A stretch of DNA of 64,000 nt from positions 33,065-97,064 of the forward strand of contig VCJN01002598.1 in NCBI GenBank assembly GCA_006384855.1, written 5' to 3'. Positions 15,810 through 63,454 of this stretch are shown here, in pieces. Numbering within the stretch: the stretch's first letter is position 1; every line of letters begins with the position of its first letter. The position numbers and the translations under genes are program-made. The stretch is from Tetraselmis striata (lineage: Eukaryota; Chlorophyta; Chlorodendrophyceae; Chlorodendrales; Chlorodendraceae). A model generated the notes under the pieces. That model was not told the DNA's origin and did not search any database. It saw only the letters and a list, made by a program, of their open reading frames with translations.

Positions 15810-17502
15810 TCAGCCGCTGAGGCTGGCGGCCACGGTGGCGGTGTGCGCCTGGATCATGGCCAGCGCCTGGTCGGCGACGCTGCGGTCGCGCGCGCCCTTG
15901 GCCCAGTCCGCCACCAGCGGCGCGGCCGCCGAGCCGGCCGTGGCGGCCTCCAGCTCGCGGGCCGCGCCCAGCAGCTGGCCGCCCGACAGCGCGGCGCGCG
16001 CGCGGGCGGTGGCGGCGGCGACGCCCCCGCCGCGCAGCCCCACCCGCTCCGCCTCCGTCTCGCTCACTCGCAGCTTGGCTGCGGGCGCAAAATCATGAGA
16101 GGACACCAACAATGGGCCACAGCCACAGGGACGGGGGGGGTTCAGCCATCAGGTCCCTCTAGCCAATGTGCAAGGATGAGAAGCATTCCCAGGTTCGGGG
16201 TACCAAGAGCAGCCCACCACGTTACATCAATCGTAAATAATAAATTGCAAATATATTGCATAAACACCTGGGTGCTGTATACTACACCACAAAAACAGCG
16301 TTAATGGTATTGCCATGTCAGGGTAAACAACATAGCGCTCGACTAAGGGCATTGGCTCCGGTGTACAGGGGGAAATGCCAGCCTTACCACCCGCTGGATG
16401 CGACCCCGGGGCACGCTCAAGCAGTACTTTGATAATACTTAGGCATGCAGCCTCCCCCCCCGGGAGTGAAACCCTACACACAGCCGGGAGCAAAGGCATC
16501 CGCCAACTCGACTTTTTTGCTATGTTCACAGTTCACTCCCCTCTCACTCTTTGCTCGATTGACAAGGGGCATGGGGCGTGGCGGTGCGCCGCGGCGACTG
16601 CCTTGCACTGCGGGGGCTCTGCACCGGGGTTTAGTAGGGTCTACCCTACATATACGAGGAATAACACGACTCGTCGTGAGACTTGCGTGCGCTCGGTGGA
16701 TCAGCTGCTGATGCGGAGCCAGAGACAGCATGTAGGTGGCGCCATAGGGAAAGGGGGGGGGGGGGGGGGGGGGGGGGGGGGTCCCGCACCTGCCAGCTGG
16801 GACAGCAGCGTGGGCAGCATGCCGCCGCCGCCCTCCGGCAGCAGCACCAGCTCCGTCGCCACGGAGGACACCTTGTCGAAGCGGTGCATCAGCTGCAGGC
16901 GCGTGGGGATGCCGGCGCCCGCGGCGGCGGTGGCGGCGGCGAGCGAGCTCGTGACCGCCTCCAGCAGCGGGTCGTCCGGCGAGGCGGCCTGTGCGGGCGG
17001 CGGCGCCACGGGGTCAGCAGAGGCCTCGGCAGCAGAGGAAAGCGCATCGCGCCGCAGGGCGGACATGGCTTCGGGTCCGCCCAAACAAATGCCGTCAACC
17101 GGAATCAACGCGAAACACGATTGGGAACACGTCGCTCGAACATCGCAAGCGGTACCCTTAAACCCTAAACCCTACATCAGCAACACCGGGACCTGGCAGT
17201 GGCGCTGAATAAGTCCGTGTAACATGGCCACAGTGGTGCCTTTCTTGGTCAACACCGGAAGCGCAAACACCCTATCAGCATGTCAGGGTATCTTGTATTC
17301 TTTACAAAAACCCTCCGGTGAAGAAACCCTACACCCTACACCCAATCGAAAGACCTTTATTTGTATCATGAAATCCCGCCGCGCGTAGGCCTGATACAAT
17401 GCAGGAGAGCCGCCCTTGTGGCGTGTGCAAGCGTTTACACCCTATGTGACCTCGAGAACAGCCCAATGCCCTTCCCTACCCTAGTACTGCACCCTCGGCT
17501 TG

Positions 17503-17535
<33 letters not shown>

Positions 17536-20500
17536 GCGAGCGCACCCGCAGGTCCGCGACCTCCTTCTGGAAGGGGCGCCCCTCCTCGAGGGCGCGCTGC
17601 AGCGCAAAGGTGGCGAGCGCGAGCTTGTGGGTGGCGCAGCCGGCCGCGGTGGCCGCCTGCTTCTGCCGCAGCGCGTCCGACATCACGTTGAAGCGGCGGC
17701 GCAGCTCGTCCAGCACCTGCCCCCCCGGGGTCGGGGTCACCGGCGCACTGGGTCAGTACCCTACAAAAACCCTAATCATGATTAAACCCTAAGTATGAGT
17801 AAATAGTAACGTTACGGCAAATGGGGATGTCTCGACGAGTATATTCCTGGTCTGAAACAGTTGCCAGGACATCCATAGACCTGATTAAACCCCAGGAAGG
17901 TTTAGCAGGGCATGTGCTGTGCTCCACCCGGTGTGCGCCAAGGCGTTTCTACGAGGGCTATTGGGCGTTTTCGTGTTGATGGACGGATGCCGGCGCATCC
18001 ATGAGAACCGCTACATTTCAAGCCTTCCATGGGGCTAGCTGGCGACCAACAGGCTCATTCGCCCTAGTTGCCGCTCTGGATGGACGGGTGCCGGAGGGGT
18101 CAGAAGAGCACTGGGAATGAGAGCGCAGCCCCGCCTACCAAGAGGTCAAACGACTCGCCAGTCTATTAGGATAAGTGCGGCAATTTGAACAGAATGAAAA
18201 TATAATAGAACAGAAAGCGTCTTGAACATTTTGCTTTTCTTGAGAGAAATCTGACAGATACATTTTAGTCGTAATGCGAATCATCTTTGAATAGTATTAA
18301 GTGCATTATTCGAGTTAGTACTGCCTGTTTATTCAGGAAAAAGTTGACGTACATTGTTTAAAAATAGATAATAATGTACAGGAATGCGGACCGATGTAGG
18401 GCGATGAGCTTACGTTAACGATTCCTACATATGCGTGATTGGTAGGATGAGTGCAGCGCACGTATAGTATGTCGTCCTGGAAGTAACCGCACCCGAGTGA
18501 TCGGGTCGATTGCCAGCGAATATGCATTGCACGGTTTCTGTGCTGGAAGGGCGGCAAATTGTAACACGGCCAGGCACCGCCGTTTCAGAGTTAATTGCCA
18601 CCTGCGCGCTGGTAGACGAAACTATAGCGGAAGTGTGGCCAATGGTCTGCTACGCTGCATGCGATCCCAATCATTCAAGGCGTATCATGAGGGTTCCTGT
18701 AGGTACTTGCATCATGCAGGGTAGTCAGACTAGTGGTGTGAAGCCTGCGTTTCCAAACCTTCAGACTCGGGAATGAGCACCGCTACCGCAGCGCCTCCGT
18801 TCTGCCTGTTTACGTTTGTGGTTTCCATGGCTCAGGGATGCAGGACACCCGTGATCAGGCATGCCTATTAGTTGAGCCAGCGAGGCGTGCTGCCGGTACG
18901 TACACTTCAACCCCAACGACCCGCCGTGCATAGGATGGACCCACCCAGCTTTCCTCCCACAGGACAGGATAGGGCTTGGGGGGGGGGGGGGGGATTGAGG
19001 AGGTGAACAGTGAGGCCGGCAGTCGACGGATAGCGAGTTGCCAAGCGCCGCCATGAGCCCTCTCCCCCCCCCCCCCCCCCCCCCACCCCGCCCAAAGCGT
19101 AGAGGCAACTCGGCATGACGAAGCTCAATGACAATTTCCACGAGGTACAGGAAGAAGCTGCACTGACTTCAGTCTCAGCGCCCCGCATCACAGCAAAGGG
19201 AAGGGGGGGGCATCACCTCCAGGCGCTCCGCTCGCTCCTTGGCCAGCGCGAGCGCGCCCGCCGTCGCCGCGTCCTCCTTGGCCGCCGCCACCTCCGCCTC
19301 CTTCTCCGCCAGCAGCGCCCGCTCTGCCGACGCCGCCGACTCCTGCGCCGCCGCCGCCGCCGCCGCGGCCGCCTCCGCCTTGCGGCACTCCGCCTCGATG
19401 AGCCGCTCCAGGCGGGCCTCCACCTCCTGCAGCGTCCGGCGGAACACCGCCGCGTCGCCGGCCGCCTGCCGGTGCGCCGCCTGGAAGGACTGCGGGTGCG
19501 GGCGCCCGCGCACACGGTCAGCCACGGGGCCGGCGGATTATGCCGCTCAGCTGCCATCACCCGCCGCAAACTCGACCAATGTGAGCTGCCGCTGCCTAAG
19601 AATAAGAATGAGTAACTGTGATAGCGCAGGAGCGAGCGAGCGAAAGCGGGAGAGGGAGAGAGGGAGGCAGAGAGAGGGAGAGCGAGAGAGGGACAGCCGT
19701 GAAGCTTAGGGTTTTAGGGTCTCGTATTCAGGTCTTTGATTCAGGGTCTTGAACCCTAACACCCCGAAATGCTGCTGTCAGCACCCCGCTTGGCAAAGGA
19801 TACCGATTCGCATGCATGTGTTTGACCGTGTGGGCCGTAGCCTGAGGCCATACAAATAAAATCCCAATATTAAGCAACCCGTGATGCAGCCTCAGACGGG
19901 GCTGGCATGCGGTCCATGGGAACGTTGGTTGCGGCTCCGCTCTCGACTCGCCTACATGTGACCTCTGGCAGGCGAGGCTGCGCTCTCACTGTTCGGCGAC
20001 CTCCCACTGCCGCGCCGGCACCCACACAAGCGCATGCTAACCTCTCCCTCTGTCATGTGCCAGGCTTGGTGTGAGCACGTGTACGGCTGCTGAGGAAGGA
20101 AGGGAAGGGGGGGGGGGGGGGGGGGGAGGGGGGGGGCTACCTTGCTGTCCGATGCGCCGTAGCCCGCAGATATGGCGGCGGCCACCAGGCCGGGCGCGTC
20201 CAGCTCGCTGCTGTCCAGGCCCAGCTTCACAAAGACGTCCTCCGCCGACATCGAGGACGCCGCCCCGCCGCCGCCGCCGCCGCCGCCCTCCCCCTCCCCC
20301 TCCCCGTCGCCGCCCGTCAGCGCGTCGCTGATGAAGCTCATCACCATCTCGGCGTCCTTCCGCGCCGCCTCCGTCAACTCCGCCTCCGCCTCCTCCGTCA
20401 TCTCCGCCGCCGCCGCCGCCACGCCCTCACCCGCCGCTTTCGCCTTCCCCACCTCGGCCGCCACATTTGCCGCCGCCTTCACCTCCGGCGCCGCCTCCTC

Positions 20501-24449: not shown

Positions 24450-27400
24450 TCAGGACTCCGGTTGCTGTGCCTCTGCCTCTTGCGGCGGAGGCGCGGAGCC
24501 CTGCTGCGGCGCCAGCCGCATGGTCAGGCTGGACTGGGGCACATCCAGGCCGCCGGTCCCGGTGCGGCTGATGCTGGCGGTGCCGTCGGTCTGGGGGCCA
24601 AAGGGGACTTCGTAGCCGATCTGGGGGCGCACGGTGGGCGCAAGGTCCTGGGAGGGGCGGCCCACGGCCATGGTGGTGCCCCCCATCATCGGCGACTCCT
24701 CAAACGTGCCCTGCAGGCGTGAAAAATCGTAGCTGCCGATCGAGTGAGGGGACAACACCTCTGCCAGCCGCCAGCAAAAAGGGGGGGAAGGGGGTGGGCT
24801 GTCAGTCCCCGGCATGGTAGCGGCAACCGCGTCAGACAGCCTTGTAGGATAGACTCGATTGGGAGAGGGTGGAAGAGAGAGGGGGGGGGGGGGGGGGGGG
24901 GGGACCTGGATTGACGGTGATGGAGCGAGCCATGTGCATCAAGCTCTCTCTGCCGAACGAGTTGGGGTGCAGCGGTGGCCGGCCGGACGGAGACCGCTGT
25001 GCGCAGGACAGGCCAACCCCCCCCCGCGAGTCAGGCGCTGAGATAAATCACCCATCCTCATTCCGTCATGTGGTCATGGCACTGCAGCAGAGCAAGGGGG
25101 CGCCACGAGGTTGGCGGATGGGTGGCGCGTACAGGGGTGCCAGCGGAGGGGATGCCCCGCGCGCCATGGGAGGGGCTTCGCGGCGGGCTGCTGGCGTCGC
25201 CCAGCAGCGGGTCCTGCAAAGGCCAAAGCAGCCGCATCTCAGCAGGGCCTCAGCAAGCGCCCCGCAGCAGGGCCGTCGCAACATGTGCCACCTGAGATGC
25301 CAGGCCAGGGGCTGCGCCGCACCTGCAGCGCGGAGACGCGCCCTGGGGGGCGCACTCCGCGGCCAGAGCCGTTGGATCTGCAGCACGCCGGAGCGGAACA
25401 GCATGTCAGGGCTAGAGTCTGTGGATACTTTATTAATCAACATGGGTGCGCGTGGGTGGCGGTTACGTATGCCGGCACGAGGCAGGCGGGTGCGCTGGTG
25501 GGGGAAATGGGCGGGGGGAGGGGGGGGCTTACGCCTGTGGAGCGTAGACAGAGCGCGAGGAGCCGATGGGCAGCTCGTCGTCCGCGGTGGTGTGCCGCAG
25601 GCAGCCGCGCATGAGCTCATTGTACAGTGACATCCCGGCCACCAGCACCCCAAAGCCAATGACCTGGGAATTGATTAGGAGCGGAGACAGGTGCAGGTAG
25701 GGGGGGGGGGGGGGGGTCGCGGAGGGTTAGCATGGCTGGCAGAACTCAGGGCTAGGAAGGCACGCTCGAAGGGCAACTCTGGCGAGATGTAGTCACTGAC
25801 TTGTTGTGTGCCGTTGGACAGACAGGTGTGTTGGGAGAGGTGTTGGGTGGGGGGAAGCGGAAGGTGGGTGGGCCGCACGGCACCTGCAGCCCGTGGAAGT
25901 ACTCCCACTCGAACCAGTACACCGAGACGGACCAGATGATGATCGTGCGGGAGGTGTCGATGGTGGCACGCCAGGCGGAGCTCAGGTCGGAGGTCACCAC
26001 GAGCGCCAGGAAGTTGAAGACCGCGATGCAGATCATGTTGAGGCCAAAGGAGATCTGCAGGCGCGGGATGCGCATGATGTCCTGCGGCCACCAATCACAG
26101 AGCCGTATAGCCTCAGCACACCACACCCGCTGTAGCTGGAGAGGCGCTGCTGCTTGTAGGCTGTGACCCCTCCGCGCTCAACTCGGGTCAATGTCACTGA
26201 CCAACTGACCAACTGACTAGCTGCCTGCTTGGATGCCACCTCCACTGGCATTCAAAATATTGTGTCCAAGTTAGCAGGCCTCACCTCAAAGGCCTGGGGC
26301 ACATCGTCCAGTGGGAGGCCGTCGGTGGCGCTGACGACCGACAGGATGGGCAGCACCACGAAGCACAGGATGAGCCCCCAGAAGCCCTCCAGCCCCACGG
26401 CCAGGAGCGCGGGCACGTGGTACTTGGCCAAGTAGCGCTCCTCTACCACAAACTGGCCGGCCGCCGCCCAGGGGCAGGGAGCACACACGGCATGAGTGAA
26501 AGCCACCCCATTGCCCCCTTCAGCTGCACCCGGACTGGGATGGGGCAGTTTACACGGCATCAAGCAGGGGGTGGGGTGTAGCGGACATGCACATTCTCAA
26601 GAGGGCAAAGCTGACTTTGCAAACCGCCAGGCACCCCAGCAACAGGCCGCACCTGGATGGCACTGAGCAGCTGGCCGGTGATGACCAGGCCGGCGCCCAG
26701 GAGCGGGTACTCCGCTGCGTCAGACTCCCCATCGGAGGAGGTCTCCTCGGTGGGGTCGCCGTTGAGTACGGAGGAGGCGCCCACGAGGAGGCTGCCGGCG
26801 GCGATCATGCAGATGCCGATCCAGTGGTGGATGTGCAGCTTGCGGCGGAGGCAGAAGATGGTGAGCAGGCCGCACCAGAGCACCATCGTGGCGCGCAGCA
26901 TCTGGAAGGTGGAGGCGTACGTAAACATGAGGCCGGTGTAGAGCATGATGGTGGCGGCAGCATCGCAGACGGCCGGGATGAAAAACGCCAGCACTTTGCG
27001 CATGGTCTTGTAGGAGGGGCAGAAGGGGAAGCAGCGTGTGTTGGCGGCCGCCTGCGAATGCGGCACAGATAGGATGGGGGTGTCAGCAACGGCGAGGGGG
27101 CAGGTCAGGGCAGATATCAGCGCCAATAAGAGAATGGGTGGGGGGGAAAGGGGGGGGGGGGGGGGGGGGGGGGGAGTGGACTCACATTGGGATGCGGCTG
27201 CACCCGACCCGCCAGCATATCCAGCTCGGACGGGCTGGTGACCATCCGGGAGATGCGGGTGCGGTCCGTTGCGTCGCCGCCCTGCCGCTTGCGCTTTAGG
27301 ACCCACTTCCAGGCGAAGTAGGGCACGAGGCAGAGAAACTCCCCGAAAAACATGAAGCCGCACTGCACGGACGGGTGCTGGAAGTACACCTCCTGACCGT

Positions 27401-27521
27401 CCTCGGTGTGGCCAACGACTGTCATATCCTGCCAGCGGGGCGCGCGCAGTTTGCGCACAGCCGCACAGGTGAGACAACGCGAGACCGGGGAGGACGAATT
27501 TATCGCCTGTATTTTGGGCCG

Positions 27522-27557
<36 letters not shown>

Positions 27558-28441: not shown

Positions 28442-28473
<32 letters not shown>

Positions 28474-28864: not shown

Positions 28865-29962
28865 ATGCTCCGGCGCGTCTTCTCCCACCGAGGAACACCG
28901 GCGCTGTTTGGGAACGCCATGCCGCCGAGGACGAGAAAGTCTGCCGTGATCGCGGAGGTGGTGGCGGTGATGCCAACTAGCCCTCGCGCCGCCCGTTCTG
29001 TAAGGGCTGCGGCATCTATCCCAGCCGCCACGCCGCCCCCCGCTGGCAGAGACAGTGCTGTCCAAAAAGCGAAGGCCGCCAAGCTGGCCAAGCAGCTTAA
29101 TAGCCTGTACCCGAGCCCGCCGATACCGCTAAACCACGAGTCCACCTTCCAGCTCCTCGTAGCGGTGATACTCTCGGCGCAAACCACAGTAAGCCCCACC
29201 ATGTGCAAAGGCATGTCAACTCTTTCGCTGCCGTTCTAGGTACACTGACTTGCAGGGAATGCACTGTGCTGCCAGGACAAAAAGGTAAATCAGGTCACGC
29301 CCAGGCTATTCAGAGTGGCACCGGATGCGGCATCCATGGCAAAGCTGCACCCCACGGCAATCCAGGAGATCATCAAGGAAATTGGGCTCGCCAAGACAAA
29401 GGCGGCCAACCTGGCTAAAACCGCAAACATGCTGATGGAGAAGCACCAAGGGCAGGTTCCGGGATCGTTTGAGGAGCTGGAGGTGCTGGCTGGCGTGGGG
29501 CACAAGACCGCCAGTGTTGTCATGGCGCAGGCGTTTGGACACCCCTCCTTCCCAGTGGACACCCACATCCACCGGCTCGCGCAGCGCTGGGGACTGACGG
29601 ACGGCAAGAACGTGGTCCAGACAGAGAATGACCTCAAGGCTGCGTTTCCTGAATCCATATGGAACGATCTCTCCCTGCAGATCATTTTCTTCGGCCGCGA
29701 GCACTGCGCTGCGCAGCGGCATGACCCGGTCGCCTGCCCCATCTGCTCCTGGGCAGCCGTGCCCCCCTACGATCAGATCGGGTTCTCCCCTTTGAAGCCG
29801 GGGCAGTCCCCCACAGCAGCAGCCAAGCAGAAGGCCAAATCCCCGCGAGCAAAGGGCAAGGAGATATCGCCCAGCAAGAAGCGCGCAGTGACCAGCAAGT
29901 TCTTCCAGGAGGACTCTGGCCAGGCTGCAAAGCCAGGGAAACAGCGGAAGCCCATGGCATGA
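28865..29962 (+). CDS. NTH1: endonuclease III-type DNA glycosylase/AP lyase
   Basis: Bifunctional base-excision repair enzyme that removes oxidised pyrimidines and nicks the abasic site. Two exons, 28865-29188 and 29276-29962, give 336 residues. The N-terminus (MLRRVFSHRGTPALFGNA) is basic and may be an organelle presequence. Core: STFQLLVAVILSAQTT, helix-hairpin-helix LAGVGHKTASVV with catalytic Lys about 185, and FPVDTHIHRL with catalytic Asp about 203. The 18-residue spacing matches E. coli Nth Lys120/Asp138. The cluster loop has Cys 252, 262 and 265 (C-x9-C-x2-C) but no fourth cysteine, unlike the bacterial C-x6-C-x2-C-x5-C. The C-terminal 65 residues are Lys-rich and could carry a nuclear signal. 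The start is the ATG at 28865, since the frame opens upstream only with non-ATG codons. Divergent from SLC35F6, convergent with the next gene. Confidence 0.94.
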
Positions 29963-31698: not shown

Positions 31699-31731
<33 letters not shown>

Positions 31732-39819: not shown

Positions 39820-42800
39820 TCAGAGGTCGTGCCTGTCCGCTATCGAGGACCCATGGATCTCCACCGCCTCAAAGAGGCTCCGGCCCCCCGCCGCCCCCTC
39901 CTCCCCCTCCTCCTCCTCCTCCTCCTCCTCGCCGATGTCGATCTCCTCCGGGTTGCCCACAGCAGCTTGGCCGCCCGGTTCGTCATCGCTGCTGACGACG
40001 TCATCGTCGCCAAGCTCGATCTCCTCTGGGTTGGCGCTCATCACTGCAATCGGGTGCAGGAAACAGCCGCGCCATCAGAGCAGGTTCCAGGCATATCTAC
40101 TGCCACTTCCACTACACGGCGGGCCGGGGGGGGGGGGGGGGGGGGGGGCATGCCGGCAGCGCACCGGCTGCGGAGGGCGGCGGGGGCAGGGGTCCGCCGG
40201 GCGCCTGGCTGTGCACCGACAGGTTGAAGCGCAGCCCCAGCATGGACAGAAACTGCACCGACTGTGGGTTGACCAGCTCCTGTGTGGGATTGCGCCCGCG
40301 GCGCACGGCGCCGCCTGCATGCAAAGACGAGCGTGAAAGAAGGGGGCCGGGGGCGGAAGAAGGGGGGGCATCCTACCCATGGACGCAAAGCCGGTGGCTA
40401 GATAATAACCCATTTTCCCCACAGACATGAAAGGATATAAAACATGCTGCCATCACCCGGATCGCACATCAGTAGGTATGTTTCTGCCAGGTGCATTGGC
40501 GTTTGTGGGGACGATTGGGAAATGCAAATAGGCCGCGGGGAGAAGGGGGGGGGGGGGGGGGGGGGGGGGCGCGCACCAGACTGCGCGGCGGGCGCGGTGG
40601 GCGCAAAGTTTTCCTGCGGAGTGGAACAAAGGCGCCGGGGGGGGGGGGGGGGGGTTCATGGCAGGGGTTTGGCAGGTGAGCCGGGATGGCATGGACAACG
40701 CCGCGGTGAATCCAGCAGCACTGGCGGCACTGCTCTCGAGGCACTGCGCGGAGGGGACTGGTCGCAACAGGCTGCGGGGAGCCGGGCGAGGGCGGCAGCG
40801 CACCGGGATCGCCTCGCCGCGCTCATCCAGTAGCTGCTGCGCCGCGTCGATCTCCGCCTGCGTGGGTGCTGGGGAGCAGGGAGACACGTGGGCGGATGAT
40901 CACAAGAGACTCTCACTGAGTGGCAGTCGCGCGCATCCGCAGGGGGAGTGCGGAGGGGCGAGGAGGGGGGGGCTACCCCGCATGCTGTTCAGCGGCTTGG
41001 CGCGGTGCGTCGTGGACAGCATGTCGTGCGTGCTCCTGAGGATGGCGAGCCACTCGGCGTCGTAGCGCAGCACGGGCTGCTTCCCTTGCTTGGCGCCGGG
41101 GAACGTCACCATCTGCCGCGCCGGGGCATTCCACGCCGCTTACATCGTAGGTGCACCGAATCACGAGTAACACTGTTCAAAATATGGCAGCTATTAAGAC
41201 AGCTAATAATCCCGAGAAGCTAACAATGATACCAAGCAAATAGTACTGAAGCCAATGCTGTGCTGCGAGGTCTCTTGCCCGCAAGTGCAAGTAGCATCTC
41301 CCGCCCCTCCCTTCCCTTTCCCAGCCCTCTCTCCCGGGTCAAGCGCGCACCTGCAGGAAGTCCCGGCCCGGGAGGCACTTGTCCAGCGCCAAGAACTTGG
41401 TCACGTTACCCACCTGCCCCCCCGGCGCTACGAGGCAACGGAGGAGAGCAAGCGGTCAGGGGGAACGGGGGTGGGTGAGGGGCGCCGGACAGGAGGTGTG
41501 TGTGTCGGGGGGTGAGGGGTTGGAGGGCACCTGGCGGGTGCTGCACCAGCGCGGCGTGCTTGACGTGCAGGTGCGCCGCGAACCAGTAGGCCGGCTGCAG
41601 CCGGCTCATCAGCCCCTCCACCACCGCGCTGCCCAGCTCGTTCTGCTCCACCTGGCGGCCACGTAGATGCACGCCAGGGTGCCGTCAGGGCGCCGCCAAA
41701 GAGACACGGCCGTTTGCGGGGACTCACTGTCTCACTTCAAAGTATAACAACTCCCACCAGAAGACACACTTCCCGGACAGTTCAAGTGTGCATGTCCGCA
41801 ACTGCGCTAGACGTACATGTGTTGTCCGGAAACGCATTGCCGATGTGAGGATAAAATGGTGAGAAAAATGCTCACATTTGGGCGTCCCCGTTGTGGGCGC
41901 CGGCGCGCGTACCTCCCGCCGGAAGAACGGCTTCTTGCGGAGCAGCTCGGCCTTGTTGCCAAAGTTGTACACCCCGCGAGGCCACTCGTGCGACAGGAAG
42001 ACGTCCAGCGGGCGCCGCAGCTGCGGCCAGAGGCGGGCGGGCGCAGCCGTCAGCCGCAGCGGAGCCGGCGCCGAGCGCGGGGAGACTCAATCGCACGCGA
42101 CTCGCACACCATGGCTCAGAATCCCGCACTGCTTCATGTGTTGTGTCGGATCGGGTGCCGACGCGGTGATCAGAACGCTGCGAATGAGCGCACGGCCCTG
42201 CCTGCCAGAGGTCAAATGCAGACAGACGTGTAGCGGAACTATAGCCAATGTTCTCATAGGCTGCCTCTTGGACCGATTTGAGGCTTCTAAGGAGGGTGTC
42301 CTTGGGTTATTATAGGTTCTTAGGTGCGTCGGCACCGGTCCATCCATTGTCATCCCCCCCCCCCCCCCCCCCCCCGGTTCTCAGCGATGCCCATTGCTGT
42401 GGACACTGCTGGATGGCCCGTTTTCCGAGTTTGACCCAACCCATGGCGGATCCCCGCCGCTGTCATCAAACGCCTCATGCGCGTGTTGTTCCCATCGGCA
42501 TCTCATCCACCGTGGGTGGCCGCAGTCGCGCGTGTCCGGCGATGCCGTTGCTGGGGGCCGCTGGCGGAGGGCGCCCGCGCACCTGCTGCAGGCGGAGCAC
42601 CTCCAGCTCGCGGATGTGGTACGCGCTCTTGACCGTCTTGGGGTTGTACGGAGGCGCCTCGAAGTGGCCCTGATAGCACCGGGATCACCGGCGCGGCCGA
42701 TCAGCGACGGTGCAGCCGACGCCTTTGGCGCTGCTTGCGCGGGCTGCCACCGTGGCAGCTTGGCAGGGCCAGGAAGGAGAAGACAGGGAAGGGGGCAAAG

Positions 42801-43811
42801 GGGGGGGAGGGGGGGGGGGGGGGGGATACCAGGCGGTAGTGGTGGTCGTTGGAGATGCCGGAGATGCCGCCGATGCGGAGGCCGCCGAAGTTCACGACAC
42901 CAGCGTAGCCGAGAAAGTAGATGTTGGGCGCCACCCAGCCGCCGTGGTACCTGCGGGCACGTGCACGAGAGGGGTGAGCGCAAGGGGAGGGGCGGGGGGG
43001 GGGGGGGGGGAAGGCATGTGGCTGCCTGGTCGATGATCGCAGAGGGCAGCCGCTGGACGCTATAATTCAGGGCGGTAAAGGGGATGGGTCCCCGGCAGGG
43101 TGTGGGGGGGGGGGGGGGGGCGGGGGGTCCATACAGCTCCCACATGTAGTTGGCCACCTCGTGGTTGCCGCCAACTAGGGGGCAAGGACACACACGCGCG
43201 TGAGCGGGTGATAAAGGAGGCCGATGTCGGCATGCGGCGGGTGCAGGCAAGGCTGCGAGTGCCCAGGGGGGGGGGGGGGGGGCATGCCAAAGAGTGTGAG
43301 ATAGGGCGCCACCGCCTCGCCGGTGTAGTACTTGTAAAAGGTGCCCAGCTGGCGGTACTTGGGCGGGCAGGACATCGTCTCGAGGTCGTCATAGTTTCGG
43401 ACCGCCTGTGAGGACAGCGTGGGGAGGGCGCCACGAAGGGGGGGGGGGGGGGGGGGGGAGGGGAGGGGGGCATCAGGCTGGGCCAGCGGGTGGAAACATT
43501 TTGCCCCAATACCTTGACACAGAGCACTCGGATAGGGAGACAAGCAGAGCCCAGGAATGGTATAAAGGCTGGGGCAGGTATGCAGGCCCAGTTATAACGA
43601 TACAGGGCAGGGGTATGGTACTGGTGACGGTAGTGGCGGCGGCGGTGGTGGTTGTCTGGGGTGGGGTGGGGGGGGGGGGGGGGCGATGTCTCGCCTGGAA
43701 GTCCCCACAGCAGATGAGCATGTCGATCTTGATGCCCTGCGCCGCCTCCATCTCCGCCATCGTGGCGTAGATCTTGTCCAGCTCCCCATGGCAGCAGCCC
43801 TCTACCACCAC
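39820..43811 (-). CDS. DBR1: RNA lariat debranching enzyme (first exon unresolved)
   Basis: Metallophosphoesterase that hydrolyses the 2'-5' branch of excised intron lariats, in the nucleus. Minus-strand exons 43811-43695, 43405-43288, 43174-43135, 42950-42830, 42669-42583, 42020-41913, 41651-41531, 41427-41351, 41112-40977, 40868-40804, 40613-40577, 40314-40165 and 40043-39820 join in phase to 466 residues plus a tiny first exon. Motifs in order: [87 protein letters not shown] and [16 protein letters not shown]. Together these define DBR1. The C-terminal domain ends with two acidic NPEEI repeats. Exons of 40 and 37 nt are present. Two introns must start with GC (after 43695 and 43288). The missing first exon should encode about two residues ending in phase 0. 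An ATGAGA at 43930 is a weak candidate, also needing a GC donor. Confidence 0.95.
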
Positions 43812-48642: not shown

Positions 48643-48722
48643 CGCACGCACACGCACACGCACACGCACACGCACACGCACACGCACACGCACACGCACA
48701 CGCACACGCACACGCACACACA
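48643..48722. repeat. (CACACG)n repeat
   Basis: About thirteen hexamer units. The Thr-His and Arg-Thr proteins read from it are artefacts. Confidence 0.95.
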
Positions 48723-50636: not shown

Positions 50637-50641
50637 TTACA
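50637..50641 (-). terminator. TGTAA poly(A) signal candidate for gamma-CA
   Basis: 63 nt after the stop codon at 50704. Confidence 0.6.
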
Positions 50642-50703
50642 AGCAGCTGTAGAGCGGAGCGGGGAAGCGGGCACGGAAGGGGCGTAGGGGGGGGGGGGGG
50701 GGC

Positions 50704-52791
50704 TCAGCCCAGGCGCGGGTCGCTGCCGTCCACGACGCGCACGCGGCCGTCGGGGCCGGTGGTGGTCTCCACGCCGTGCGGCGGCTGGATGCCCAGGTGG
50801 TCGTAGTAGTCGGGGTCGATGCGCATCTCCTCCCGCGCGTCCTCGTCCGCCAGCACCTCCTCAAAGGTCTTGGCGTTCTCGACCAGGTGCGCCGTGCTCA
50901 GCGCGGCCATGTGCTCCGACGCGCGCGTCAGGAAGGCGGCCTCCTCCGCGCTCACCGCGCGCACAAACTTGGCGGGGCTGCCAGCCCAGATCTGGCCGCT
51001 GGGGACCGTCGTGCCGGGCGTCACCAGCGCGCCCGCGCCCACGATGGCGCCCTTCTCAACCTGCCGGAGCCGAAGGGAGGGAAGGGGGGGGGGGGTGTCA
51101 GCGGCGCACATCCCGAGTAGTTGGCATGGCATGGTGCGGTTTCGGGGGGCATCGATGTTACCGCGGTTGTAACCAACAAACCCAATCAAATGGCACCGCG
51201 GCGGGCATCAGCAGTAGTGTATTAACCCAAGACAAGCCCACAGCAACGAGCAGCCTGATCCCCAGCCACAAACCGCCCAGGCGCACAGCTCCTCCACCAA
51301 GGCCATGGTCAAGATATTCTGCACATTGCTAGATGCGCACAATTAGCCGGTTGACCGTGTGAACAGCGGGTGACAAGGAGCCCAAGACACATCCCACCAC
51401 CGCTGACATCGAGTGATGCGAGCAGGGCTAGGGGGTAGCGCCATACTTTCGAGCCCTGGACGCATGGAGTGGGATTGTTGAGCCGATCGCCCAACATCAA
51501 GTGAGCGGGGTTTCCCTCGGAGGAGGGGATGGGGAGGACGGTGAAGGGGGGAGGGGGGGCAGACGCACGGTGACTCCGTCCATCACCACAGCGCCCATGC
51601 CGATGAGGCTGCCGTCCGCAATCTGGCAGGCATGCAGCGTCGCGTTTTGCCCTGTGTACGAAGCGGGAGAGGGTTGAGGTCGAGGTGGGCGGTGGGGCCG
51701 GAAGGGACATCGCGCCTGGTGGGCGGTCAGGTGGCGCAGAGGGGGGCGGGATGGCGGGGGCATGGAGGCATCATTACGCTTGGATGGGGGGGCGGGGGGG
51801 AGGGGCGCACCGACGATGACGTTGTTGCCCACAATGGTGGGGAGCGACTGGCCCTTCGGGTTGTGCTTCGCGACGTGGATGACCACGTTATCCTGGATGC
51901 TCGTCATGGCGCCAATCTTCACCGAGTTGACATCGCCTGTGGCCGCCGGGAGCGGCGCATCAGCAAGGTAGGCATGCCCACAAAGGGAGCCTCGCCGGGA
52001 GAGGGGGGGGGGGGGGGTGGAGAGGGCGCACCCCGGACGGTGGTGCCGTAAAACACGGAAGAGCTAGCGCCGATGGAGACGTCGCCGATGACGCTCGCGT
52101 TGGGTGCGATGAACACGTCGTCGCCCAGCACAGGTGCTTTGGATGCCAGGGCCACCAGCGGCTTCTGCTTCGTGACTGCCGGCCAGATCAGCAGCGACGG
52201 CGATCAGTGGCGTCACCTCAGGCAAGGAGGTACGCCCTGACAGGTGGCCTGTCTTGCACGTCCTTCAGAATCCTGCCCCCCCCCCCCCAACAAGGCCCCG
52301 ACGTCTTCCCAGCCCCGCAGCCCTAACGCTTTGTCAGCCTGCCGCGGTTCCACAGAGGAACATGCTCCACGGACCGAGATCTCCCAAACAGACCAGGCCC
52401 GGCAACAGCGAGCAGCTGGGCAGGCAGCTGGGCGTGGGGCGCCAGCGCGGTGCCGTTGCCCTAAAAACCCTGCTCCATCGTCCCTGTGCCACCTAAGCCC
52501 GCGGCTGCCATCTCCTCGGAACCGCGCCGGTATCGCCGCTGCACGCTCGTGTGGGTGCTTTGCGGCACGCGGAGATGCGGATGGTCGGCGCGAGGGGGTA
52601 TCAGGTGGAAGCGGAGGGGGGCGGGGGGGGGGGGGGGGGGGGGGGGGGGTGGGCGGGGGGTTGAGCGCGCGGCGCGCACCCGCTTCCCTGTACGCCAGGC
52701 TCCCCTGCAGGCCGCATCCAACGCCCTCCAGGATCCCGCCTAGTCCCCGCGCCACCGCGCCCAGGGCGCGTCCGAGCCCCGCGGAGGCCAT
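50704..52791 (-). CDS. gamma-carbonic anhydrase-like mitochondrial complex I subunit
   Basis: Left-handed beta-helix protein. In plants and algae such proteins form a trimeric domain on the matrix side of respiratory complex I. Minus-strand exons 52791-52680, 52175-52032, 51936-51811, 51651-51569 and 51060-50704 join in phase to 273 residues. The N-terminus MASAGLGRALGAVARGLGGI resembles plant gamma-CAs (GRAIxxxGxxxxG). Hexapeptide-repeat core: VFIAPNASVIGDVSIGASSS, YGTTVRGDVNSVKIG, IQDNVVIHVAKH, IVGNNVIVGQNATLHACQI, LIGMGAVVMDGV, VEKGAIVGAGALVTPG and IWAGSPAKFVR. The first zinc His is present (about His106). The second ligand position is Gln129 in GQNATLH, where active forms have GHSAxxH, and the third, His134, is kept. 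It may therefore be catalytically weak or inactive, as in gamma-CAL subunits. A C run follows every donor. Divergent from CNOT3. Confidence 0.94.
52623..52649 (-). repeat. 27-nt C homopolymer (sense strand)
   Basis: In the first gamma-CA intron. The C-rich stretch begins about 20 nt after the donor. Confidence 0.85.
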
Positions 52792-53820: not shown

Positions 53821-56800
53821 ATGGGGTCAGCACGCAAGCTGCAGAGCGAGATCGACCGCACCCTGAAAAAGGTGCAGGAGGGGGTGGACCTCTTCGACCA
53901 GATATGGCAAAAGGTGCGCACTTTCCCCATCGCCCTTCCCCTTGCCCACCTTCCATCGACCGCAGCGGTTCCAGGCGGTGCGTGGGGTGCGTGCGGTTCC
54001 CGCAGGGGGGGGAGGGGCGCTGGGCGGTGTGATGCTGGGGGCGGATGGGGATGAAAAAGAGCGAAGTGGAGTGCTGAGAGATGAGGGGGATGGCCCCGGG
54101 GAGGTGGGGGGGGGGGGGGGGGGGCTCAGGTGCTGCATCAAGAACACTGGCAGGCAGGCGTCAGGCATGTATGCGCCTGTGTCCCCACGCCTGCTGACAG
54201 TCCCGTGCCGTCCCGCGGCCCGGCAGGTGTACGACACGGACAATGTGAATCAGAAGGAGAAGTACGAGGCGGACCTCAAGAAGGAGATCAAAAAGCTGCA
54301 GCGGTACCGCGACCAGATCAAGACATGGTGCGCCCCCGGGCCCACACCCCCCTTTGTCCCCCTGCCGCGCCCTCTGCTGCAGGCGGGCAGGCTGCTGACA
54401 GCGCCTCGCCGCCCCTGCCCGCTGTGCGTCCTGCAGGGCCGCCAGCAACGACATAAAGGACAAGCGGCAGCTGCTGGACGCTCGAAAACAGATCGAGCGA
54501 GAAATGGAGCGCTTCAAGGTTGGCCGCCTGGGGGCCCTCTGCCACCCGTCCTTACAGGGGTGCATGCGCTGAGGGGGAAAGGGAGGGAGAGCAATGGATG
54601 GAGGGTGCAGAGGAAGGGGGGGCGCGCTGAGTTGGTCTGTGCGGGCATGGCTAGGTCTGCGAGAAGGAGACAAAAACCAAAGCTTTTTCCAAAGAGGGGC
54701 TGGGGCAGGCGCTCAAGGTGCCCTCCCTCCCCCTCTACCCACCCACCACTCACGCACTCGCACTCACCCGACGTGCTTGTCCCCCCCCTTGCTGAGCCAA
54801 CGATGCCTTCATGCTGCGGTGGGGGCGCGGAGCTAACGCCGTGTTCCCTTTGCCCCGCCCCCGCCTTTCTGCCCGCAGTTGGACCCCAAGGAGAAGGCCA
54901 AGCAGGACATGCGGGACTGGCTGAACAACACGGTGGAGACGCTGTCCACGCAGGTGCGGCTGCACCCCTCCCCGCGCCCCACCCCCCTCTCCCTACCCCA
55001 GCCGGGCCTGCGCCGAGCTGGCGCGCAGTGCTAGTCAGCCCCCCAACACGGCGTGCAGGTGGACGAGTTTGAGTACGAGATGGACGGCATCACCACCAGC
55101 ATGAAGAAGAAGGACAAGGTGGGGCGCGCCCGCCCGCCTGCCTGCATTGCCGGCCTGGATGCGCACCGCACCCACCAGCGGCCCGCCAGCAGGAGCGGAG
55201 TGCTGGCTCAACCCCCCCCCCCCCCCCCCCCCCCCCCCCTTCCTGCCCATATCGCCCAGGCGCCTCCCCGGCTGACGCACCTGGAGGAGAGCGTGACGCG
55301 ACACAAGGAGCACGTGCGGCGGCTCGAGCAGATGCTGCGCCTGCTGGACAACGAAACCATCACGCCCGAGGTGCCCCCCCCCCCAGCCCAACCAGCCCAG
55401 CCTCCCCTCCTGGCTCCCAGACCCTTGCTGCCTACGCCGCCGCTCCTGCGGTTGCGGCTGCCCACGCTTGTGGCCTCCTCAAGGCGGGGCTCGCTGAGCG
55501 GGGGAGTGGTGCGGCTGACCCGGCAGGACGTCGGCGACGTGCGGGACCTGGTGGACGACTACCTGGACCGCAACCAGGACGACTTTGACGACTTTGCCGT
55601 CCCGGACGACCTGTACGACGAGCTGTTGGAGCAGCTGGAGGGCGCCACCTCGCTCGACCCCGTGATTGCGCCGGTAACCCCCCCCCTCCTTCCCCCCTTC
55701 CCCCTTCAGTCTTTGTGCCCCACCCGCGTTGCTGGTCCTGGCTCATGGTCCCTGCCTCCCTTGCCTCCCCAGACGCCTACGATGGAGACCAAGAAAGAGA
55801 AGTCCGATAAGAAGTCCGATAAGGACAAGGAGCGCGAGAAGGACCGGCAGGCGGCGGAGAAGGAGGCGGAGCGGCAGCGGGAGCGTGATCGCGCGGCGGC
55901 GGCGGCGCTCAAGAGTCAGGCAAGCCTCAAGCCCCCCGCCCGCCCGTCCTTCCATGTCTACATGAATGATGCCCCTCAGCCGCTGGCACTGCCTGTGGCG
56001 GGAAACTCTCTCCCTCCTCTCTCTTGTACACGTACGGGTGGGTGGGTGGGTGTGTACATGGCTGAGGACAGCATTGAGACTTGCGGTTGTGGTCCTGTGG
56101 CGGCCATGCATCGGGGAGAGTCTTCGGGCTGAGGGCGGCTAGTCTGCGGGGCCAACGGGTGTACTGCCTCCCGTTCACCCCAACTCTCCAACCCTTCGCC
56201 CCGGGGCGCATAGTCGGGCAGTCCCGGGCTGGCAGTTACTGCCTCAGCCCCTCCCCTCCCACCCCCCCTCGCCCCATCTCCCCCCCCCCCCCCCCCCCCC
56301 CTCCCACCCCTTAAATACAATAAACACCAGCGCTGACAGAGCCGGCCCTGCCTCCGTGAGGGAGGCGTTCCTTGTGTGCTGTCCGGCCACTGTCAGTGCC
56401 TCGTCTGATGGGACTATCTGCCCTCCTCTTCCCCACCCCACTATCATGTGCTTGGGCCCATGTGTGTTTATGTGATCATCAATAATACATATTTTCTGGG
56501 AGAGGGGAGGGGAGGGGAAGGGGGGGGGGGGGGGAGCTCACATGGGAGCGCCTGGAGAGCAGCATGTACCTTGAGTGGCATTACTGCACCACCTCACACG
56601 GCGGCATGCGGAGCCATGCCACGAGCGCCCGTGCAGTCCCCCTTGCAGGTGGATGAGCGCTAACGGGCGTTGGCCCTGTGCGGGTGTCGGCTCGCAGGTC
56701 CGCGGCGCGCCCCCGCCCGCGCCCACGCCGGTGCCCGTTCAGCGCAGCATCTCCAGCCACTCGGACGACAACTCGGAAGACAAGCGGCGGGGCGCAGCGC

Positions 56801-56892
56801 CCGCGCCGCCCGCGCCGATGATGCCCCGGCCGGAGGGCAGCATGCAGCCCCCCGCGCAGGGCGTGCCCCCCGGCATGCCCGTCCCGCCCCCC

Positions 56893-56939
<47 letters not shown>

Positions 56940-58453
56940 GCGCGCTGCCGCCACCGCCGCCGCCGCCAGCATGGCCCCCATGGCGCCCGGCGGCAGCATG
57001 GCGCAGGCCGGCAGCGGGCCGCCCGGCGACATGATGCCCGGCCGCATGTTTGCGGGGCCGGGCGCGCAGGGCATGGGGCAGGGCCCGCGCCCGCAGTCCA
57101 ACTGGATGGGCTTCCCTGGAGGTGCGGCGACCCCCCCCCTCCCTCCCCTTCCCTCCTGGCTCAACTACTTCGCCCTGCGGTTTTGTTCCGGACGACCCAG
57201 ATGTCACGACCGTGCCCAGTCTTTGACCACCTGGAGTCACGCAGCCCCGGGGCTCAGGGCACAAATCCCATATCATAACACGCATGTTCCGACGCAAGAG
57301 ACCGGAAAACAGTTCCATAATGTCCTAGACCCGCGAACCCAGGGAAACGGTACGGTATACATGGGCATACATAGGTATGTTGATAGGTATATATCGATAT
57401 ATATATGTATATAGAGGTATACATAGGTATGGATATGTATATAGCCTTGCGGTCATCGCTCTATAGATTCCTCCCCCCCCCCCCCCACCCCCCGGCCGCG
57501 GTCCGCCCCGCTACCCATTCACATTCGCTCCCATCAAGAGAGAGGGCTATGTAGAAATCCATAGCCCTCTGTTTGGCGGGGCGAGCCTTGGGGTGTCGGC
57601 GCCATTCTGTTGTATCGGGCGGTTGGAAGGAGGGGGGGCAGGGGGGCATGGCAGGCGGGCGCCGCGTTGGTGGGGCTGACCTGGGCGCATGTCTGTGGGT
57701 GCGCGTGTCTGTGGCAGGCGAGGGCGGCGGCTTCCCGCAGCCGGGCGCGGAGGGCCGGCGCGCCGACCAGCCGACCATCCCGCCAGACCAGAAGAAGCGC
57801 TTCCTGTCGCGGCTGCAGCAGATGCAGGCGGGGATGGCGGACCCCGGCCTGAGCGGCGTCAAGGGGCCCCTGGACGGCGGCGAGGAGGGCGGCCCCAAGA
57901 AGGAGGGCCTCCCCAACGGCATGGAGCCCGGCAAGGACGCGGGCGCGGAGTCGCTGCAGGGCGGCGCGGCGCCCATGATGCCGGGCGGCATGCCGCTCGG
58001 CTTCGGCAACGCCAACGCCAACATGCAGCTGCTGTCCGCGTGCGCGCTGCGCTCCATCCCGCACGCCGCCGACTCGGCGTGGAGCGGCCCCTCCGCGCCG
58101 CGCGTGCGCGCGCCTGTGGGCGTCGCGGTGCCGCCGTCGTACCCCACGGTCAAGATGCCGCTGCTGGAGAACCCCGCGCTGTTTGAGAAGCTGGACAGCG
58201 AGGCGCTCTTCTTCGCGTTCTACCACCAGCCTGGGACCTACCAGCAGTACCTCGCGGCGCGTGAGCTCAAGCGCCAGTCCTGGAGGTAACCCCTCCCCCC
58301 CCCCCCCCCTCCCCTCCACCACCACACCACCTCCCACCACCACCAGCGTCAGTCTCTCTTGCTGGGGTCTCATGAAGGTATCGGAGCCCCTGGGGGCTCC
58401 CACCCGCTCTCGGCCGCCAGCAATTTCGCAATGTCCTCTCCCTGTCTCTCCCT

Positions 58454-58496
<43 letters not shown>

Positions 58497-59271: not shown

Positions 59272-59399
59272 GGCTGAGTCCAGGCCCACGGGCTCCCCCC
59301 CGTTCCCGCCCCTCGGTCCTCCCCTCCCCGCGCGGCTGTGTGTTAGTGCGCGCTGGTGAGGGCCCGCGCCCTGCGTCCGCCTTCTCCCTCTCTAGGCCA

Positions 59400-59404
59400 T
59401 GTAA
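59400..59404 (+). terminator. TGTAA poly(A) signal candidate for CNOT3
   Basis: 129 nt after the CNOT3 stop. Confidence 0.5.
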
Positions 59405-59600
59405 GGCAACCGGGGTGCCCCCCCCCCCCCCCCTTCTGTCCCCGCTCCACCATCCACTATTTTGCAGCATATGCCCCGGCCACTGCCTTATTCCGGGTTG
59501 CTTCCGTCGAGCCCCACCTGTCGTGTTCAGCAGCACGCACCGCGGTGCCTGAGCGGACTAGATACATCACCATTGCCGGGTATCCCAGCCCGCATTGAAG

Positions 59601-60880: not shown

Positions 60881-61062
60881 CAACATTAATTATCATATAC
60901 GGGGTCGTGCGCGCGGTTGTGTACAGCATGCATACAAGTAATGCCGCACGGCAGTGATACCGCGTCATGGATAGCGCGGCCCACCGCACCGGCTGGTCCA
61001 CCACCCGGCTCGCCCATCCCACACTGGCAGCCGCTCTGAGGCCACAACCGCTCGGCCAGCCT

Positions 61063-61067
61063 TTACA
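61063..61067 (-). terminator. TGTAA poly(A) signal candidate
   Basis: 39 nt after the stop codon at 61106 of the minus-strand gene. Confidence 0.6.
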
Positions 61068-61105
61068 ACCGCGGATGGGCTGCACACAAAGCGCGGTCGC
61101 TGCGC

Positions 61106-61633
61106 TCAGCTGGCGGTCTTGAACACCGCCTGCGCGCGGTCCTCCAGCTCCTTCAGAAACTCGGCCTGCGCATCCGCCGCGGCGACACATTATTAGCAAG
61201 CGGAGATCGGTCCCCAGCAGGACAGCTTCGATCACATGCATCGACACGGCGCAGCAGCGGTACCCCGGTAGGTGGTAGAAGTGGCATACGGGTATTAGAA
61301 TAGTGGTGGTACGAGTGTTGGAATACGACTCCCTAAAGTATGTAGCGTCCAAAAGATTAAAAAAAAAAGATAAAAGTGCCATCACACGACTCCCTAAAGT
61401 ATGAATGCCGCAAAGACAAAATGGCTAGATGGCGCCTATTATATCATTGACACGCTCTTGGCGGGTTCTCCCCTCTTGCCGTGTGCACCGTTGCCGCTGT
61501 CATGCACCAGTCTTGGTGAACACGAAAGCTACTTCTGTTACAAAGGAGTGTGCGGCTCTGTTCTGTCGCGGCGACCGGATGATTGTCACCGGATGATTGC
61601 GCATCCCCCCCCCCCTCCCCCCCCCGGCATCCC

Positions 61634-61666
<33 letters not shown>

Positions 61667-63454
61667 CCTGGCATACGTGACGGCAGTGCCCTTGCATTGG
61701 ATTCGCGGATCTACCGCGATGATTTGTGTCGGAATATCCGTGTGTTATTCGCGCTTTTGTCTGATGTATGGGAGTTGCTCTCTCTTGGGGAGGAAACGAG
61801 GAGGTTCAGAAACGCACCCACATCCGGGTTACAGGCACACCTCTCACACTTATTCCTGTGTGCCCGAATATATGCAGTAACACGGGAAGTTCACTGCGAC
61901 CGGTAATGCGTGGATGGAGGTCGCGGGGGGGGGGGGGGGGGGGGGGGGTGCCTGCACGCGCTGCGCGTAGGAGCCGCTCTTGAGGTTGAGCACCGTCCCC
62001 TCCATCCGCCGCTGCAGCGCCTCGTTGAACGACACCTCGCTGCACTCCCCGCTGGACACCGCGCCGCGCAGCACCGCGTCCCACTCCTCCTCGGGCGCGT
62101 CCAGCAGCTGCACACGCACAACAGCGGAGGGGGCGGGGGGCAAATTAAGGTTTAATACGGGGTTGGGGACAAATTAGGGTTTCCTAGGGTTCACGATTCA
62201 AAGCTGCCGCCGGATGTTACCGGAGACAGCTGCAACTGTGACAACTACGCGCAGAGGCACCCAGCGCCCTCTACGGGTGCCGCCGCACTTTGACGGACAG
62301 TTCCTATAACTATTTATAAGAGAATATGTGTTCATATTATACAAAGTCGTACAGAAGGACATCGGAAACCCAAACCCCCCCCCCCCCCCCCGGGGACATA
62401 GAGACCCATCAACTCTCGGTTTCAGAAGCAATCGAAACGGCGCCGCCCAGGTCCCTGAATCGAGAGGCCAGGCTCCGAAACCAAATGCAACCATCGAGGC
62501 GACATATCCCAACCGGTGCCATCACAACGCCAGGATGCACGAGCCAAGTCGCTAAGAATCCGGAGACAGCTGCAACGGTGACAACTGCGCACACAGGCGG
62601 CCGGCGCCCTCTACGGGTGGCGTCCCCCACATGGAAGAAGCACCGTGCCAATGAGAAGCCGTGGTGTCCCTTTGTCCGGTGCCGCAGCGAATTCATGGCG
62701 AATTCGATGCGTTGAGCAGCTTTAGGGCTTGGTGCTTTAATGTTAGGTTAATAAACCCTAAACCTAAAGTTAACCCTGAACCCTGAACCAGATTAATTCA
62801 ACCCTGAACCTAAAGTTAACCCAAAGGGGGTTTGCATCAAGTGTCCTTTGGGGGGGAAAGCAATATCTTTAGGGTATTTGGGGTTTTAACGTGATGATCT
62901 AAAAACCCTAACTCAAACCCTGAACCTAGCCTACCGTGATACTGGAGGGGGTTCGCATCAAATGTAGCGGGCAGCAGAGGATGGCGTCATTGTCGTCCAA
63001 CCAAGCGGCGTCATTGTTGTGGATGGCGTCGTTGGGCGGGCAGCTCCCCCCATCCCTCCCTTCCCTGGCCTGCCCATCTTGCCACCCGGGTGACCGCGCC
63101 CGCACCTGGTTGAGCACCTTGTCCTCCCGCGCCGCGCCGTCGCTCTTGAGCTGCTTGGCGGCGTACAGCTGCAGCACCTTCTGCAGCAGCAGCACCATGC
63201 CTGCCGGGGTGTGCCCCCGAGGGGGAGGGGGGTGGGTGGGGGGGGGGGGGGGGGTTGCTCAGTGTAGCTCCGACATGCGGCGGTGAGACAAGAGCGCAGG
63301 GCGAACGGTCACTGAGGCAGCCACGACGGCCGGGTTGATGCCGGGGGGTGGGGCGGGGCTCACCGTCCATCTTGTCGTCCGAGGCCTTGCGCATCCACGC
63401 AAAGGCGTTGGAGAGCACCGCCTCGTCCACCTTGCCCAGGTTGGCCTCCACCGC
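61106..63454 (-). CDS. unrecognised helical protein (5' end open)
   Basis: I do not recognise the family. Minus-strand exons 63454-63364, 63200-63106, 62107-61952 (or to 61958) and 61165-61106 join in phase to about 133 residues. Upstream exons are not found and may lie beyond the window. The sequence is soluble and mostly helical: LGKVDEAVLSNAFAWMRKAS, MVLLLQKVLQLYAAKQLKSD, LLDAPEEEWDAVLRGAV, VSFNEALQRRMEGTVLNL, and a C-terminal amphipathic helix AEFLKELEDRAQAVFKTAS. The third donor is ambiguous: GC after CAG at 61952, or GT after CGC at 61958, both in phase and differing by two residues. Clean phases and the C-tracts after donors support a real gene. A large intron (61166-61951) separates the last two exons, and the intron 62108-63105 holds telomere-like and duplicated segments. 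Confidence 0.72.
61645..61669 (+). repeat. (CT)n microsatellite
   Basis: Short CT repeat following C homopolymers in an intron of the 61.1-63.5 kb gene. Confidence 0.85.
62220..62623 (+). repeat. 64-bp direct repeat pair
   Basis: Copies at 62220-62283 and 62560-62623, starting exactly 340 bp apart. Both begin CCGGAGACAGCTGCAAC and end GCGCCCTCTACGGGTG, with about ten differences. They lie in an intron. Confidence 0.85.
62745..62935 (+). repeat. degenerate telomere-like repeats
   Basis: CCCTAAA, CCCTGAA and CCTAAAGTTAACCC units over about 190 bp in an intron. The block AACCTAAAGTTAACCC occurs twice, about 47 bp apart. Confidence 0.7.

Follow-up and report, generated by a model that had tools for sequence, protein, structure and literature searches.

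C homopolymers concentrate behind intron donors in the green alga Tetraselmis striata and may mark a C-rich splicing element

A U-rich element downstream of the 5′ splice site (the donor) helps U1, the system of TIA-1, Nam8 and RBP45d. In the short mle intron of Drosophila, C-rich tracts between donor and branch point reportedly help splicing and replace a missing 3′ tract, a finding said to go back to Kennedy and Berget in 1997. For intron 7 of human SMN2, the available part of one study describes poly-C of at least four residues just downstream of the donor (positions 11-15) as a strong class of enhancer for exon 7 splicing, with PCBP1/2 assumed by its authors, who did not test them, to be the likely readers (PMC8789036). 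The accessible text on Acanthamoeba U12 introns mentions a C-rich region right after the donor consensus, of unknown role (PMC2846911), and that on Chlamydomonas reinhardtii and Volvox carteri reports that intron tandem repeats concentrate near intron-exon junctions, that mononucleotide repeats are extremely scarce (0.94%) and that GT/AC predominates in C. reinhardtii (PMC3887541). Here we describe runs of C placed directly behind intron donors in a 64,000-nucleotide (nt) stretch of the Tetraselmis striata genome (positions 33065-97064 of contig C2096, the whole of which is called the window below).

The enrichment of C-runs behind intron donors was confirmed inside and outside the window, and among the papers listed in searches of the open-access literature none describes donor-side C homopolymers for an alga. 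The best explanation we can offer is an intronic splicing element, rich in C and placed at the donor, that is exaggerated by slippage, to which we assign a probability of roughly 0.46; its function is deduced from position and composition, and a neutral origin of the runs is ranked nearly as likely.

The source assembly comprises 224,097,584 bases in 2903 contigs, from which a sample of 304 kb was analysed, consisting of the window and a further 240 kb drawn from eight contigs, one of them that of the window; the sample is non-random, a single contig supplying 150 kb. Introns were called by a self-training hidden Markov model (HMM) in which C or G runs of at least 6 nt emit no score and so neither attract nor repel donors, and whose donor matrix reaches +6 and was trained on the model's own predicted introns. 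It predicted 342 introns with the U2-like donor consensus CAG/GTGCG. As the model assigns 78% of the sequence to introns, deep-intron counts for the full set surely contain intergenic DNA. Because it also merges adjoining genes, over-calls intron and disallows GC donors, we used a high-confidence subset of 142 introns (exon log-odds above 8 on both sides, length at most 1500 nt; 200 excluded), and some tests were restricted to 122 introns of at least 90 nt.

Among the 142 introns, 34 runs of at least six C start between +4 and +20, against a single run of G, and the corresponding counts for all 342 predicted introns are 44 and 3. The density of such C-runs falls from about 14 per kb at +4 to +20, through 5.6 at +21 to +30 and 2.1 at +31 to +40, to 1.4 at +151 to +1500. 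C6 occurs within +4 to +26 in 30 of the 142 introns, while circular shifts within introns gave 10.75 ± 2.77 and none of 2000 reached 30; G6 was found in the donor zone of one intron. Near donors the C-runs keep to the sense strand on both chromosome strands, as the initial annotation had stated. As the idea arose from the window, introns outside it constitute a fair and independent test, and there 11 of 98 carry C6 at the donor against a null of 4.1 (0 of 2000 shifts), a weaker effect than inside, where 19 of 44 do so against 6.5. The share is uneven, with 10 of 69 introns on C4, none of 10 on C2096:1-30000 and 1 of 19 on six other contigs, and the window is a rich example of the effect.

Genome-wide, the donor word CAGGTGCG with a C8 run beginning 1-16 nt after it gave 546 matches. 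The same word with a C8 run 121-136 nt away was found 162 times, and with a near G8 run 134 times, a repeat family being among the latter. A broken donor, CAGCTGCG, gave 115 matches with C8, many of which have another donor in the gap; since this word is rarer than CAGGTGCG (20 vs 34 in 304 kb, both strands), scaling by those small counts leaves an excess of about 2.8-fold, not 4.7-fold. Backward-read controls gave 120, 76, 29 and 13 (donor, 546 forward vs 120 backward; broken donor, 115 vs 13), with word frequencies that differ from those of the forward words. Because the broken-donor and backward controls use words of other frequency, weight was put on the same-word controls, and because duplicated segments and doubly counted places inflate genome-wide counts, the same-word contrasts are taken as support and not as rates. 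Two repeated words were noticed in the genome: an interspersed repeat with GGTGAGTAGCGGGACACTGTGCCCCCCCC (for example C71:49118 and C225:231502; more than two dozen copies among the matches listed), which has a donor-like start and then C8 and could conceivably be an introner or transposon, and CAGGTGCGGGGAGGGGGGGG (for example C45:7700 and C157:109418), of which the matches listed include more than a dozen copies.

The initial annotation had placed runs of at least six C just inside the introns at a series of donors in the window. This was borne out at each of the 21 donors listed, all of them splice-like, the dinucleotide being GT in 19 and GC in 2 (43695 and 43288), with the run beginning between +4 and +17 in every case. 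The HMM recovered 15 of the 21 exactly. They are given below, with MIC60, SLC35F6 and the 576-amino-acid gene named as in that annotation.

20107..20136, minus strand: C9-T-C20 starting at +5 from donor 20141 (MIC60); HMM donor
19203..19210, minus strand: C8 starting at +7 from donor 19217 (MIC60); HMM donor
17505..17533, minus strand: C29 starting at +13 from donor 17546 (MIC60); HMM donor 10 nt off
16753..16781, minus strand: C29 starting at +9 from donor 16790 (MIC60); HMM donor
25513..25527, minus strand: C8-T-C6 starting at +6 from donor 25533 (SLC35F6); HMM donor
27150..27174, minus strand: C25 starting at +12 from donor 27186 (SLC35F6); HMM chose another donor 18 nt upstream
31701..31729, minus strand: C29 starting at +10 from donor 31739 (576-amino-acid gene); HMM donor
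43668..43683, minus strand: C16 starting at +12 from GC donor 43695 (DBR1); protein continuous
43266..43282, minus strand: C17 starting at +6 from GC donor 43288 (DBR1); protein continuous
43104..43127, minus strand: C6-G-C17 starting at +8 from donor 43135 (DBR1); protein continuous
42800..42825, minus strand: C17-T-C8 starting at +5 from donor 42830 (DBR1); HMM donor, protein continuous
40965..40972, minus strand: C8 starting at +5 from donor 40977 (DBR1); HMM donor
40545..40569, minus strand: C25 starting at +8 from donor 40577 (DBR1); HMM donor
40126..40148, minus strand: C23 starting at +17 from donor 40165 (DBR1); HMM donor
52003..52017, minus strand: C15 starting at +15 from donor 52032 (gamma-CA); HMM donor, protein continuous
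51786..51800, minus strand: C7-G-C7 starting at +11 from donor 51811 (gamma-CA); HMM donor, protein continuous
51546..51559, minus strand: C7-T-C6 starting at +10 from donor 51569 (gamma-CA); HMM donor, protein continuous
55374..55384, plus strand: C11 starting at +4 from donor 55370 (CNOT3); HMM read exon here, the basis being a GAG/GTG site and the gene model of the initial annotation
55678..55686, plus strand: C9 starting at +5 from donor 55673 (CNOT3); HMM donor
57131..57139, plus strand: C9 starting at +10 from donor 57121 (CNOT3); HMM donor
58295..58309, plus strand: C15 starting at +10 from donor 58285 (CNOT3); HMM donor, protein continuous with CNOT3

Protein comparison covers part of this list. 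Spliced at 43695, 43288, 43135 and 42830, DBR1 can be aligned with an RNA lariat debranching enzyme of solved structure (E about 4e-38) with no break at these four junctions, and the alignments of gamma-CA across junctions 52032, 51811 and 51569 and of CNOT3 across junction 58285 are likewise continuous. The one exon tested of the gene labelled MIC60 gave no Pfam match, and an exon of the gene labelled SLC35F6 gave transporter matches only, below the curated cut-off. DBR1 has two GC-AG introns (43695 and 43288), each with a run of 16-17 C right behind the donor.

The runs at donors lie within a broader compositional feature: the 5′ end of the intron is a C-rich, G-poor zone on the RNA strand, extending from about +7 to about +60 and fading by about +60 to +90. 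Between +4 and +30 the counts of C and G clusters are 69 and 23 for triplets, 30 and 6 for quadruplets and 14 and 0 for quintuplets, and deep in the intron C3 and G3 are nearly alike (11.1 and 9.7 per kb). Introns devoid of any C6 (n = 77) contain 48 runs of C3-5 at +7 to +30 against a null of 29.6 (z 4.0), and those of them outside the window (n = 63) contain 34 against 23.3 (z 2.4). Segments of 24 nt with at least 14 C occur in 33 of 139 introns at +7, 18 of 128 at +31 and 6 of 106 at +61, and farther in they occur in 1 of 96 at +91, 1 of 85 at +121 and 3 of 70 at +201. The C-G skew is concentrated in the first 60 nt or so and amounts to 0.03 in mid-intron; third codon positions beside donors display no consistent C skew, and the 60 exon bases upstream of donors are free of G bias (C 0.338, G 0.330). 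Since the zone is C-only and donor-local, is present without homopolymers too, and is absent from the deep intron and from exon third positions, a role at the RNA level at the donor would be its most direct explanation.

Several described elements were compared with this zone and do not fit it. The U-rich TIA-1/Nam8 element is at odds with a T fraction of 0.16-0.19 at +7 to +25 against 0.24 in mid-intron, and the vertebrate G-triplet enhancer with a G3 density of 6.6 per kb at +4 to +30 against 9.7 deep in the intron, with G6 at the donor confined to the one intron mentioned above. An accessory tract of the mle type does not agree with the positive correlation between C content and 3′ pyrimidine content given below and with the occurrence of C6 in 4 of 27 introns of the shortest and 13 of 65 of the longest class. 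The U12-type donor RTATCCTTT differs from the GTGCG consensus seen here; individual donors resemble it (GTATCC at 42830, for example), and no search for a U12 branch site was made.

Taken together, we propose that a C-rich, G-poor RNA element stands directly behind the donor consensus, its most likely role being that of an intronic splicing enhancer by which the donor is marked. As in a C-rich enhancer of the PCBP type, the RNA strand carries a C cluster no farther than about 30 nt past the donor; a PCBP-like KH protein would be a plausible reader and would recruit U1 or steady it. The genome holds 18 KH_1 matches, which on C1064, C4 and C187 are clustered in threes, and the best solved match of one C4 exon with a KH domain (one exon, not the whole gene) is PCBP2, followed by NOVA-1; judged by sequence similarity, a PCBP-like KH protein appears to be present. 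Slippage would expand C:G runs above about 8 nt to 11-34 nt and keep their length changing, so that the conspicuous homopolymers may represent the slippage-exaggerated form of short C clusters presumably kept there by selection.

The long C:G runs of this genome form a class of their own. In the 304 kb, their lengths show a second mode from 11 nt and reach 32, with 162 C or G runs of at least 11 nt against 0.67 expected by extrapolating short runs, and no A or T run exceeds 10 nt. Run length differed in all 11 comparisons, by 1 to 12 nt, among 20 near-identical copies in nine sets (92-100% identity); in one duplicate pair, a run of 34 stands opposite runs of 9 and 17 split by A. The copies were taken from the first 100 listed matches, one set from the donor list and eight from the broken-donor list, so that one of the nine sets was picked at an intact donor, and because both copies were selected for C8, the shared presence of a run proves nothing. 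The excess of long runs and the change in length between near-identical copies are those of a hypermutable C:G mononucleotide microsatellite, although part of the length differences may be read noise. Dinucleotide repeats (AC, GT, CT or AG, at least 5 units) were seen once in the first 40 nt of the 142 introns. C tracts of at least 9 nt are polar, the 3′ flank being C-rich (5.30 of 10) and the 5′ flank plainer (3.84 of 10; 117 tracts vs 46 of 184, p 8e-9), and within predicted introns sense (n = 106) and antisense (n = 56) tracts behave the same in this respect. The polarity is a property of the C strand itself, independent of transcription, and is predicted by none of the explanations considered here.

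Several observations weigh against a splicing element. Most introns (112 of 142) have no C6 at the donor, and in 122 introns the C content at +7 to +30 is uncorrelated with donor strength (rho -0.005) or with the match to U1 (+0.03). When real, complemented and shuffled zones were compared in folding, the donor was no more accessible with the real zone than with the complemented one (0.360 vs 0.385, p 0.08), a slight trend in the opposite direction. C content rises with 3′ pyrimidine content (rho +0.26, p 0.004), and compensation for a weak 3′ tract is therefore not apparent. A donor-like site (score at least 5) precedes 23 of the 162 runs of at least 11 nt by no more than 40 nt, while the control interval, 60-100 nt upstream, holds one for 14 runs and the 40 nt downstream for 5 (at a score of at least 3, the numbers are 64, 46 and 25, respectively). 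Most long C:G runs are therefore unconnected with any donor, which is a hot place for the class and not its source. KH proteins of the PCBP type are, to our knowledge, general in eukaryotes, and because they are so common the KH matches show that a reader is possible and carry little weight. Moreover, the accessible part of the SMN2 study lists GCACC and GCUCC as strong silencers, so that C content alone need not enhance (PMC8789036). Of the suggestion in the initial annotation that the C-tract serves as a splicing signal, the position at the donor, the choice of C over G or T and the presence of the zone without homopolymers speak in its favour, and the missing correlation with donor strength and the missing compensation leave it unproven.

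A serious competitor is neutral accumulation, in which C runs arise wherever a few C's adjoin, unopposed by selection and with no role in splicing; at donors, the consensus C's at +6 to +10 would seed slippage in an intron start free of the constraints of branch point and 3′ site. That most long runs lie away from donors, that lengths differ between duplicates and that C content is unlinked to donor strength, without compensation, all agree with this account. So does the share of runs of at least 11 nt among C-runs of at least 6 nt, which is no higher at +4 to +20 (12 of 34) than at +151 to +1500 (27 of 51); the long runs at donors may therefore simply reflect a greater number of short C clusters there, and the question becomes the origin of those clusters. 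It is on these clusters that neutrality falls short, as it leaves unexplained why C rather than G or T is favoured, why C extends to about +60, and why C3-5 is in excess at +7 to +30 even in introns without any C6. A technical origin in sequencing or assembly is improbable, for an artefact would be blind to donors and strand, and short C clusters, which are well handled by sequencing, show the same position effect; still, the absence of any run above 32 in 304 kb, with the longest, 34, in one duplicate, may mark a technical limit, and the length differences between duplicates could in part be read noise.

Two mechanisms raised by the initial annotation are also disfavoured. Transcription-coupled mutation, by which the non-template strand gains C through asymmetry of transcription or repair, would account for runs near donors that keep to the sense strand on both chromosome strands, and runs of at least 11 nt in predicted introns comprise 93 C against 50 G on the sense strand (the intron labels being rough). 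Such a process is hard to reconcile with a skew confined to about the first 60 nt and close to nil in mid-intron, with third codon positions beside donors that share no consistent skew, and with flank polarity equal for sense and antisense tracts, and we consider it unlikely. Pairing of the C-run with a G-rich part of a small nuclear RNA or with the flanking exon would benefit from the strength of C:G pairs. The stretches inspected, around ACAGAGA in one U6 gene and at the 5′ end in one U1 gene, are ordinary, however, with no G-run in register, the upstream exon is not G-biased, and folding did not change the opening of the donor in the predicted direction, which together make pairing very improbable.

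If the preferred explanation, a C-rich splicing element, is followed further, donors in this lineage would carry a C-rich element from +7 to about +60 as a constitutive extension of their signal, with a PCBP-like KH protein as its reader instead of the U-rich/TIA system, and free slippage would lead to fast changes of length and to heritable variation in splicing strength throughout the genome; this extended version appears doubtful at present. Should the C zone work in splicing, a GC-rich green alga would rely on C to define its donors, in contrast to the U element familiar from yeast, animals and plants, and its numerous homopolymers would amount to a natural dose series. Extrapolation from the non-random 304 kb suggests about 120,000 C:G runs of at least 11 nt genome-wide. 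Even if neutral, runs that are denser at intron starts and have polar flanks represent an unusual growth of microsatellites in a eukaryotic genome, and they would have consequences for sequencing such genomes and for predicting their genes.

Some further features were recorded. An open reading frame (ORF) for an HhH-GPD (endonuclease III-like) DNA glycosylase lies at 29249-29959 of the window on the plus strand, flanked by genes predicted on the opposite strand. An Rfam scan of the window gave nothing at gathering score, and ARAGORN found none. On the same contig, two ORFs of equal length (329 amino acids) and base composition, at C2096:10990-11976 and 13671-14657, lie 2.7 kb apart and are likely a tandem duplicate. 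The genome contains 63 chlorophyll a/b-binding matches, among them five tandem genes on C1767 (222840-280606), four of which score the same as copies on other contigs; the array looks like the amplification of one antenna gene.

Compared with the described systems, the algal zone shares with SMN2 its place and letter behind the donor, and differs from it, as far as the available text of that study goes, in that SMN2 concerns one regulated exon and short motifs, whereas the sequence of the alga shows the tendency genome-wide, with homopolymers that often measure 8-30 nt (PMC8789036). Like the U-rich element of TIA-1, Nam8 and RBP45d in the accessible portions of its descriptions, it is a pyrimidine element just inside the intron (PMC2766253, PMC9813592); unlike that element, it consists of C and not U, T being lower at +7 to +25 than in mid-intron. 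The donors are U2-like, CAG/GTGCG, in contrast to the Acanthamoeba U12 introns as described in the available text (PMC2846911), and sense-strand C homopolymers at the donor with few intronic dinucleotide repeats set T. striata apart from what the accessible part of the report on C. reinhardtii and V. carteri describes (PMC3887541). A C-rich donor-side element and C:G microsatellite growth are both of kinds already known, and their coupling at the donor is a variant that combines the two.

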